Assembly (NCBI GenBank): GCA_026708035.1
Contig: JAPOVQ010000015.1
Location: forward strand, 1-64,000
Origin: Chloroflexota bacterium
GTDB lineage: Bacteria; Chloroflexota; UBA11872
DNA length: 64,000 nucleotides
Direction: 5' to 3'
Shown: in pieces, positions 33,121-36,201 of the stretch
How positions within the stretch are numbered: position 1 is the stretch's first letter
Layout: each line of letters starts with the position of its first letter
Position numbers and translations under genes: made by a program
The notes under the pieces: model-generated
What the model saw: only the letters and a program-made list of their open reading frames with translations
The model's database searches: none
Told to the model about the DNA's origin: nothing

Positions 33121-33996
33121 CTAAGCCTTCGGGCTGATCACGACCCGGCGTTCGTCGCCCTCGCCGATGCTGTAGGTGCGGACGTTTTCGTCGTCGGCCA
33201 GGGCCACGTGAATCAGCCGGCGCTCGTTGGCGGGCATGGATTCCAGCGTGACGGGCTCTTGGGTCTCGGTGACCTCATCGGCGAGGGTCTCGGCCAGCTC
33301 GCGCAGGTGATCCGCGCGGCGCGCCCGATAGCTGTTGACGTCGATGAGCACGCGGCACGGCTGGCCCAGCTGCCGTCCGGCCATGAGGTTGATGAGGTAG
33401 CCAAACGACCGCAGCGTGGACCCATGGCGGCCGATCAGCTTGGAGAAATCGTCGTCGCCGACGACGTTGTATGCCAGCGGGTCCTCATCGACGAGCTCGA
33501 TCTCGGCGATGAACCCCATGCGATCGAGCATGCCGACCAGCAGGTCTTCGACGATGTCCTGCAGCTCTTCGCCGCTCTCAACCAGCGAGCGAGACGGGCG
33601 GGCGCGGGGCGCGGGTTGCTCCGCGACGGGCTCCTGGACGGGTTCGGGCGCCGGCGGAGCAGGCGGAGAAGGTTCCACCTGCGCCTCGGATGGCTCGGCG
33701 GCGCGTGCCGGGGGCTCCGGCTCGGGCTCGGCCGGGGGCTCGGGCTCGGCCGGGGGCTCGTGCTCCGTCTCGTCGATGGTGGCCGAAAAGGGCCGTTCGC
33801 GGCGCACCACGCGCACGCGGGCTTCGGCGTCGCGACGCAGCAGGCGCGAGCCGCCGCTGGAAAGAATCTCGACGTCAACGTCGTCGATGGTGGCATCGAG
33901 CTGCCGCAGGGCCTGGCGCAGCGCGTCCTCGACGGAGACGCCGGTGGCCTCCACGCTCTCGGGAGCGTCGGGAGAGTCGGTTGAATGGTCAGCCAC
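33121..33996 (-). CDS. khpB: RNA-binding protein KhpB (Jag/SpoIIIJ-associated)
   Basis: 291 residues from the GTG at 33996, with GAAGGAGG a few bases upstream. The N-terminal Jag domain (residues 10-60) is followed by a long Pro/Glu-rich linker (about 75-130). A KH domain with VVGDDDFSKLIGRHGSTLRSF and an R3H domain with LESMPANERRLIHVAL complete the protein. It binds RNA and acts with KhpA in cell-envelope growth in other bacteria. The start overlaps the yidC stop by 8 bases, the usual gene order. The acidic linker (repeated PAEPEP) is longer than usual. Confidence 0.93.
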   Translation of the reverse strand: MADHSTDSPDAPESVEATGVSVEDALRQALRQLDATIDDVDVEILSSGGSRLLRRDAEARVRVVRRERPFSATIDETEHEPPAEPEPPAEPEPEPPARAAEPSEAQVEPSPPAPPAPEPVQEPVAEQPAPRARPSRSLVESGEELQDIVEDLLVGMLDRMGFIAEIELVDEDPLAYNVVGDDDFSKLIGRHGSTLRSFGYLINLMAGRQLGQPCRVLIDVNSYRARRADHLRELAETLADEVTETQEPVTLESMPANERRLIHVALADDENVRTYSIGEGDERRVVISPKA

Positions 33997-35629
33997 TGCG
34001 CCTCCTTCGGCGTCGCCGCCGCCGCGGGGTCGTCGCCACGCCCTCACCAGAGCGTTGGCTCGCGGCTTCGCTGGTTGCTGTGTCTTCCAATGTCTTGGCC
34101 GGGGTCGGGGCGTCCGGGCGGGCCGTCATGTCGCGGGCGATGGGCCAGTGCGCGGGAATCAGCGCGCCGGTTCCGGTGGTGAAGTACTGCTGCACGATGG
34201 CAATGATGCTGGAAATCACCCAATAGAGCACCAAGCCCGCCTGGAATGACCAGGCGAAGATGACCACGATGATGGGCATGAATTGCATCACCCGATTCAC
34301 CGTCGCCTGCTGTCCCTCGGCGGTCTTCGAGGCCATCATCCGGGCCTGCACGAACTGGAAGGCGCCAGCCAGCAGCGCCAGCAGCGAGATATAGAACCCT
34401 CCCGTGCCGAACACGTCTTGCTGGATGGGGATGCGCGTGAATCCGGCGTTGCCGGCGGCGGTCTGCCCCTGTCGGCTGTCCCACCACTTCTGCACGAACT
34501 TCTCGCCGTCGGATTCACCTGGCGCCCAGTAGACGTAGGCGTCGCGGGCGAGGAAGTAGTTCTCGTCACGCAGCGCCGCCACGTTCGCGGAAAACGCGCG
34601 GTCGGCGCCTTCGGCCTCGACGTTGACCATGCGCACGTTGTCATGCACGACCGGCCCGGAGATGCCGAGCGATCCGGGATCGGCGATAAGTTCCGCGATG
34701 TAGTCTTCGACCGTCGCCCGCAGCTGGATGATCCGCGGCGGGATGGGCTCGCCGTCGAGGAGCATCTCCGAGAGCAGGTTTCGGGTTCCAACATCGTTTC
34801 CGAGGCCAAAGACATTGATTGGGCCGGCGGGCAGGCCGAGCTGCGACCAATCGGTGATCTCGCCTCGCAGAATCTGGGCGGCTTCGATCTTGGTGAGCCG
34901 CGTGAGCGGCCGATCGCGCTCCACCACGAACGCGGCCGCCTGCACGAGCCGAGCTTCCGTGGTGCCCGGCGGATAGTCGGCGAGCGCCTGTCGCTCTTCG
35001 ACAAACGCCGCGCTCGCGCGTCCACTGGTGACCGCGGCCGCCGAATTGGCGGGGTCGACGGTATCGATGGTGAAGCGGAAATTGGCGTTTTGGCCGGCAA
35101 ATTCCGCCGCGACCTGCGACTCCAGCGGCGTGATCGGAAACGTCGTCGCCAGGTGCACGTCGGTGGGGGCCGTGGGACTGGATTCGCCAAGAACCGGGAT
35201 CGTGGAATCCTCGCGCGCCAGGTTGAACCAGAGGAATTGCTCGTTGAGCAGCCCCTGGCCGCTCAGCGTGAGAATGCCCCCGTAGAGCGCCAGCAGGATC
35301 GGCAGCTGCACGAAGATGGGCAGGCAACCCGAGAGCGGGCTGACGCCCTGCTCCTTGTAGAGCTTCATGGTGGCTTGCGACTGCGCCTGCCGGTCGTTCC
35401 TGAACTTGCGGCGGATCTCCGCCATTTCGGGCTGCAGGACCTGCATGCGCCGTTGTGAGCGGATCTGCTTCACCGTGAGCGGGATCATCAGCGTCCGAAT
35501 CGCGATCGTGAACAGGATGATCGCGATGGCGTAGCTGCCGACCCCGTCGCGGATGAGATTGAGAACCTCGCTGAGTGGGTTGACGGCCCACGTCTGCCAG
35601 GTTTCGCCGATGCTTGAGAAGAGTTCCAT
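33989..35629 (-). CDS. yidC: membrane insertase YidC with an inserted PstS-like binding-protein domain
   Basis: 546 residues. The YidC core is present: first membrane helix (about 32-52) with R45, a cytoplasmic hairpin (53-98), and PLSGCLPIFVQLPILLALYGG (98-118). After QFLWFNLARED (131-141) the core is interrupted by about 250 residues, then resumes with GFYISLLALLAGAFQFVQARMM (411-432) and two more helices. The insert (about 155-408) reads as a periplasmic-binding-protein domain of the PstS/phosphate type: LTKIEAAQILRGEITDWSQLG, INVFGLGNDVGTRNLLSEML, and a closing YVYWAPGESDGEKFVQKWWDS. It would lie outside the membrane. The C-terminus is a poly-Arg tail. I know no characterised YidC with this insertion. 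Confidence 0.95.
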   Translation of the reverse strand: MELFSSIGETWQTWAVNPLSEVLNLIRDGVGSYAIAIILFTIAIRTLMIPLTVKQIRSQRRMQVLQPEMAEIRRKFRNDRQAQSQATMKLYKEQGVSPLSGCLPIFVQLPILLALYGGILTLSGQGLLNEQFLWFNLAREDSTIPVLGESSPTAPTDVHLATTFPITPLESQVAAEFAGQNANFRFTIDTVDPANSAAAVTSGRASAAFVEERQALADYPPGTTEARLVQAAAFVVERDRPLTRLTKIEAAQILRGEITDWSQLGLPAGPINVFGLGNDVGTRNLLSEMLLDGEPIPPRIIQLRATVEDYIAELIADPGSLGISGPVVHDNVRMVNVEAEGADRAFSANVAALRDENYFLARDAYVYWAPGESDGEKFVQKWWDSRQGQTAAGNAGFTRIPIQQDVFGTGGFYISLLALLAGAFQFVQARMMASKTAEGQQATVNRVMQFMPIIVVIFAWSFQAGLVLYWVISSIIAIVQQYFTTGTGALIPAHWPIARDMTARPDAPTPAKTLEDTATSEAASQRSGEGVATTPRRRRRRRRRSG

Positions 35630-35644
35630 GGCTCAGACCCGCGG

Positions 35645-35854
35645 CTACGGCACCGGGTCGAAGCCGCCGGCGGCGAAGGGATGGCACCGCGCGATGCGTC
35701 GCAGCGCGAGCCAGAGCCCCCGAACCACGCCGTAGCGCTCGACGGCGACGGCGGCGAATTCGGAACACGTCGGCTCGTAGATGCAGTGCGCGCCAAGTCC
35801 GCCGGACAGCCACCGCTGGTAGCCGCGAATCACCACGAGCACCGTACGTTTCAC
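35645..35854 (-). CDS. yidD: membrane protein insertion efficiency factor YidD
   Basis: 69 residues from the GTG at 35854, which overlaps the rnpA stop by 4 bases. The hallmark YQRWLSGGLGAHCIYEPTCSEFA has the conserved Cys pair, followed by GLWLALRRIARCHPFAAGGFDPVP. This small amphipathic protein supports YidC/Sec insertion. A longer frame to 35926 exists but overlaps rnpA too far. The yidC start is 16 bases downstream. Confidence 0.93.
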   Translation of the reverse strand: MKRTVLVVIRGYQRWLSGGLGAHCIYEPTCSEFAAVAVERYGVVRGLWLALRRIARCHPFAAGGFDPVP

Positions 35855-36201
35855 GCCAGACTCGGGACGTGTGCGGCGCGCGCCTGTGCCAGGGATTGGG
35901 CCACAGCCCCCGTCAGGCAGCCCCATGGCGCGTCAGCCACGGGTCGGCGCGCCTGCGCCACCATGTCGACGATCGGTTGCGGCGTTGCCAGGTGCGGCCG
36001 AAACGCCGCCCGCAAGCGGCGACGCATGCGGTTCCGGACGACCGCGGTGCCGAGCCGGCGCGGCGCCGTGATGGCCAGGCGGGTCGTCTCCGCGCCGCCG
36101 GGCGCGACAAACAGCACGAAGTAGGGGCAGGCCACGCGCGTTCCGCGGCGCCGCACGCGCGAGATGTCGGCGGCGCTTCGCAGCCGATGGCGTTTGCTCA
36201 C
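35851..36201 (-). CDS. rnpA: ribonuclease P protein component
   Basis: 116 residues. KRHRLRSAADISRVRRRG is the usual N-terminus and AVVRNRMRRRLRAAFR is the family's RNR signature, which contacts the RNase P RNA. It assists maturation of tRNA 5' ends. It lies between rpmH and yidD in the conserved order. The ATG at 36201 is well placed. The sequence is highly basic, as expected. Confidence 0.95.
   Translation of the reverse strand: MSKRHRLRSAADISRVRRRGTRVACPYFVLFVAPGGAETTRLAITAPRRLGTAVVRNRMRRRLRAAFRPHLATPQPIVDMVAQARRPVADAPWGCLTGAVAQSLAQARAAHVPSLA

Follow-up and report, generated by a model that had tools for sequence, protein, structure and literature searches.

A complete PstS-type substrate-binding-protein domain within the YidC core of a Chloroflexota family

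The yidC locus and its split insertase core

The window, i.e. the whole stretch of DNA analysed here, covers 64,000 nucleotides of a Chloroflexota contig. It contains the gene order rpmH-rnpA-yidD-yidC-jag, which is the standard yidC cluster (Table 1), and no pst genes were found among the ORFs neighbouring yidC in the window. YidC, which inserts other proteins into the cell membrane, is almost universal. Its five-helix core is usually depicted as invariant, any additional domains being terminal or preceding the core. In the 546 aa product of this yidC gene, the match to PF02096 (60KD_IMP; E 1.3e-51, 175 bits for a cut-off of 35) comes in two pieces, which flank a match to PF12849 (PBP_like_2). 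TIGR03592, the NCBIfam profile of the YidC C-terminal region, is likewise split into two stretches (193.9 bits, cut-off 84.3). With both collections, the halves of the core correspond to residues 33-145, and then from about 411 onward. The initial annotation had indeed placed the insertase core on both sides of an insert of about 250 residues following QFLWFNLARED.

The N-terminal part of the core is composed of an amphipathic start, TM1 (residues 33-53 approximately), a cytoplasmic helical hairpin, TM2 (approximately 102-123) and the FLWFNLARED segment. The groove arginine, R45, lies in core TM1 and is present in every aligned Chloroflexota YidC row; a passage of PMC8920935 describes the positive charge of the groove as strictly conserved across the YidC/Oxa1 family. 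The C-terminal part contributes core TM3, TM4 and a presumed TM5, and an Arg-rich cytoplasmic tail. Hydropathy peaks were obtained for core TM1 to TM4, TM5 having no separate peak, and the match to the PF02096 profile reaches position 161 out of 163. In almost all members, the tail ends with a run of eight or nine arginines (33992-34090 in the window), which is probably a site of contact with the ribosome or RNA. PF02096 detects a single locus in the genome, and no second, normal YidC was found by this search: a transporter-receptor domain of 250 residues sits within the core of the only YidC of the organism.

Table 1. Coordinates of the features at the yidC locus (positions in the window), and of the YidC loci of Chloroflexota family f53 (positions in each locus)
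Feature	Position	Strand	Evidence
rpmH, ribosomal protein L34	36250..36384	-	ORF, by-eye reading of MKRTYQPK...
rnpA, RNase P protein	35851..36201	-	PF00825 E 1.3e-22
yidD, standard upstream neighbour	35645..35926	-	PF01809 E 1.5e-26
yidC, including stop	33989..35629	-	ORF; PF02096 and PF12849 matches
YidC core, N-terminal part, residues 1-140	35210..35629	-	PF02096 33-145; R45 alignment; hydropathy
Whole extra segment relative to sister-family YidC, residues 141-409, linkers included	34403..35209	-	Alignment; stretch modelled
PstS-type SBP domain, residues ~156-404	34418..35164	-	Pfam, NCBIfam and PDB profiles; model and fold matches
YidC core, C-terminal part, residues 410-546	33992..34402	-	PF02096 positions 100-161; hydropathy, charge
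jag/khpB, standard downstream neighbour	33121..33996	-	Jag_N, KH and R3H domains; GTG start assumed
f53 YidC, L126	1384-2826	+	
f53 YidC, L127	1345-2850	+	
f53 YidC, L128	1378-2826	-	

Fold, position and origin of the inserted domain

Sequence profiles from Pfam, NCBIfam and the PDB concur in identifying the insert as a substrate-binding protein (SBP) of PstS type. PF12849 matches residues 151-323 (E 4.6e-14), and the insert alone scores 55.5 bits for a cut-off of 27. TIGR02136 (PstS family) spans residues 166-396, with a score of 46.7 bits that is below its trusted cut-off of 206.6. The three segments quoted at the outset as being in PstS order are present, in that order, and alignment with 33 SBPs of other phyla shows that the domain is whole, its first strand and its closing GQ..AGF.R.P included. 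An AlphaFold2 model of residues 141-409, built from 49 sequences (mean pLDDT 89.6, pTM 0.82), has the alternating alpha/beta fold of SBPs, with its two lobes complete. The resemblance to binding proteins that had been read from the letters was borne out by a fold search, where the whole length of the model matched solved phosphate-binding proteins, with a Z of 21.2 for 4jwo (rmsd 5.2 over 251 residues), 19.1 for 1twy and 18.9 for 4n13. The combination of a high rmsd with a high Z suggests that the angle between lobes in the modelled insert differs from that of the solved chains. By its profile score above cut-off and its whole two-lobed fold, the insert belongs to the type II SBP / PBP_like_2 superfamily. 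We conclude that it is one complete two-lobed PstS-type SBP domain interrupting the core of an intact YidC.

The domain is placed between the second and third core helices, in an extracytoplasmic loop. Hydropathy revealed no transmembrane segment within the insert. Residues 54-101 and 485-546 are positively charged (11 K/R for 4 D/E, and 13 for 6, respectively), and residues 124-409 are negatively charged (21 for 38). By the positive-inside rule, together with the known topology of YidC, this pattern locates the insert outside the membrane, as proposed in the initial annotation. Omp85/BamA was looked for and not found, as expected if the outer membrane is absent, and "outside" therefore probably means the cell-wall side. 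A full-chain model, made with 18 close relatives, had a pLDDT of 43, too poor for orienting the domain on the core.

A YidC of 540-551 residues with the insert and no internal stop was found in 19/19 genomes of the family, which comprises two genera. All these members are metagenome-assembled genomes, which could raise the suspicion of an assembly chimera or of a frameshift in yidC, two artefacts that had been envisaged from the start. The same intact ORF and the same junctions are nevertheless present in the 18 other genomes, and one carrier genome is a single 3.0 Mb contig. Moreover, some 54% of insert positions are not shared between the two genera (mean identity 0.460), as compared to 22% of core positions, a divergence indicating that the fusion is old, rather than a shared assembly error. 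We regard the probability of an artefact as negligible.

The insert was present in none of the 5 genomes of the sister family, and was absent also from the genomes with a YidC match in three additional families of this class (sample of 41 genomes for the class). In the tree, it forms one clade with 100/100 support and a long stem, whose nearest relatives have no clear placement. The insert was acquired once, when the lineage had already separated from the sister family but the two genera had not yet diverged. A recent copy of the PstS gene of the same genome was also envisaged and is unsupported, the insert being a separate, long-stemmed clade. Upon scanning the contigs of 84,980 species with peptide patterns, a method by which distant fusions would be missed, the YidC plus SBP architecture was found in this family only, at 17 loci. 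Judging from record names, several carriers may come from metagenomes of marine invertebrates, probably sponges. Among open-licence PMC papers, we found no published YidC with an SBP or any inserted domain, nor any relevant report on a Chloroflexi YidC, in agreement with the novelty initially claimed.

The same loop is occupied in another Chloroflexota family (f53, three genomes), by some 160 unrelated residues located just before FLWLPSL. The loop therefore tolerates domain insertion: within a single phylum, the segment between core helices 2 and 3 has taken up large insertions on at least two occasions, with the gene retained. Among the matches listed for 247 sampled Chloroflexota genomes with YidC, as read from the number of YidC matches per genome, the core match was split by a domain-sized insert in these two families only. 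The f53 insert gave no match with Pfam or NCBIfam and no significant one with PDB sequences; by eye, it appears beta-rich and is possibly cohesin-like. The corresponding segment, the h4h5 region, has been called hypervariable in the Oxa1 superfamily (PMC8675477).

Other unusual YidC proteins were met in the phylum. In the sister family (L102-L105), about 30 extra, cysteine-bearing residues are found in this same loop, just before FLWF, e.g. GGCLGPEGETLQVVGGGIGADAYNSCKNAGG. The long frames of families f39 and f24 correspond to long tails or N-terminal extensions, with a contiguous core match and no large domain in the loop. The f24 proteins (L121, L122, L124, L125) seemingly have a lipoprotein-like N-terminus (hydrophobic, ending with AC) and an enlarged, cysteine-containing loop. 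The apparent split of YidC in genome G077 is due to masked sequence (N) and a frame change, not to a domain. Finally, genome G148 encodes, beside a normal copy, a second and divergent YidC paralogue of 418 aa (L132, 1381-2634, plus strand), with additional hydrophobic helices after the core.

Selection on the insert and loss of the anion site

Median dN/dS within the two genera was 0.133 and 0.073 for the insert, and 0.039 and 0.043 for the core (simple Nei-Gojobori counts, dS being near saturation between genera). The insert is thus under purifying selection, though it evolves faster than the core. Conservation is highest at AAAF.VERDR (231-240), in the loop of residues 161-170, in the Y.YW strand (361-370), and at residues 221-230 and 391-400.

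The alignment shows that the phosphate-site motifs GSTS, GSG, SSR and R..SGT are gone in all members of the family. GSTS is replaced by TT(F/E/D)(P/L) and GSG by D(P/A)x, and SSR is without its arginine. In place of R..SGT, one genus has L..(V/I)GT, and the other mostly L..LSA. Anion-contacting columns, which we assigned according to what is established for E. coli PstS, show the highest conservation within the domain among free SBPs (mean 0.749 vs 0.524, the former value being reached by 0/10,000 random draws). In the insert, agreement between genera at these columns is 0.298, vs 0.472 elsewhere. The separate PstS of the genome retains GSSTVGP, SGSGAG, ASR and DSGTYD, behind a lipoprotein-like signal; the insert has neither a signal peptide of its own nor pstCAB neighbours, and is embedded within yidC. 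Given the loss of the motifs, the insert would not be a phosphate receptor, and phosphate binding appears very unlikely from the alignment. In the initial proposal of a binding-protein domain, the term stands for fold and ancestry rather than for a demonstrated activity. Residues 161-168 (ATT...TP) form a conserved loop that still lines the ancestral cleft, which makes it possible that the insert has some ligand; D279 is also conserved in the family.

Possible roles, and comparison with known systems

As the phosphate-binding residues were lost and yet the domain is kept by selection, the insert has probably taken on a different function outside the membrane. The reading we put forward, to which we give about an even chance, is that the insert serves outside the cytoplasm as an accessory domain, for handling substrates or docking to Sec. 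It relies on the analogy with P1, the unrelated extra domain of diderm YidC, and on the disappearance of the ligand site while other stretches remained conserved. The domain would no longer bind phosphate nor feed an ABC transporter. From its attachment point close to where the groove exits, it would hold or shield translocated segments, dock the Sec apparatus, or both, a role analogous to that of P1. SecDF, encoded in the genome, is a possible partner, and contacts of E. coli P1 with SecD/SecF and with emerging polypeptides have been reported (PMC7618853). A replacement of SecDF or PstS by the insert is ruled out, the genome encoding both.

In view of the faster evolution of the insert relative to the core, and since E. 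coli P1 is largely dispensable (PMC5766551), the domain could also be a tolerated passenger, which entered a permissive loop by accident long ago and is kept only because it must fold without damaging YidC. Enlargement of this loop, or its occupation by unrelated sequence, in other lineages is in line with this possibility, as is the hypervariability of the h4h5 region. We consider it rather unlikely, in view of the near-constant length at which the insert is retained in all 19 genomes, although 250 residues are easily deleted, and of the strong conservation of some stretches, AAAF.VERDR and Y.YW among them. The retention of a complete two-lobed fold, the conservation of the 161-168 loop and of D279, and the junction of both domain ends to core helices would rather fit a sensor, in which a different small molecule occupies the remodelled cleft, and opening and closing alter the core helices and insertion activity. 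Such a ligand-gated insertase is unlikely, since the cleft columns are less conserved than the remaining insert, and the genera diverge strongly in two of the four loops of the site, which is not the behaviour of a conserved ligand site. In its fullest form, an extracellular non-phosphate molecule would bind the SBP, and lobe movement transmitted through the junctions to TM2 and TM3 would change insertion; we hold this for distinctly improbable, but if true, it would to our knowledge be the first case of a YidC under the control of a small molecule from outside the cell. As to a functional phosphate receptor, by which the uptake or sensing of phosphate would be linked to YidC, the closest solved relatives of the insert are phosphate-binding proteins, but with every anion-site motif lost, a canonical PstS encoded separately and no pst genes adjoining yidC, this is hardly credible.

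Whether it acts as the accessory domain we favour or otherwise, the insert offers a natural experiment on the role of extracytoplasmic domains for the insertase, and marks a site in YidC for the placement of domains in engineering or labelling.

The best PDB sequence match of this YidC is monoderm YidC (3wo6, 3wo7). With SpoIIIJ and B. halodurans YidC2, it shares the groove arginine, the cytoplasmic hairpin, the lack of P1 and probably the five-helix core, but in these proteins the loop joining core TM2 to TM3 carries no domain. E. coli YidC (3wvf) similarly carries a large extracytoplasmic domain of unrelated ancestral fold on an insertase core. The P1 fold is a beta supersandwich. P1 precedes the core, between TM1 and TM2 (PMC5766551), whereas here the chain begins with the core itself, and the domain, of SBP fold, lies inside it, after core TM2; the initial annotation was right to set it apart from the Gram-negative domain in both position and fold. 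With PstS proteins (4jwo, 1twy, 4gd5, 4n13), the insert shares the full-length two-lobed fold and the sequence family, but it is part of a membrane protein, has no signal peptide, has lost the anion-site motifs and is not found with pst genes. The f53 YidC resembles it by a large insert in the same loop, made however of unrelated residues, and placed N-terminal to the FLW segment, which the SBP domain follows.
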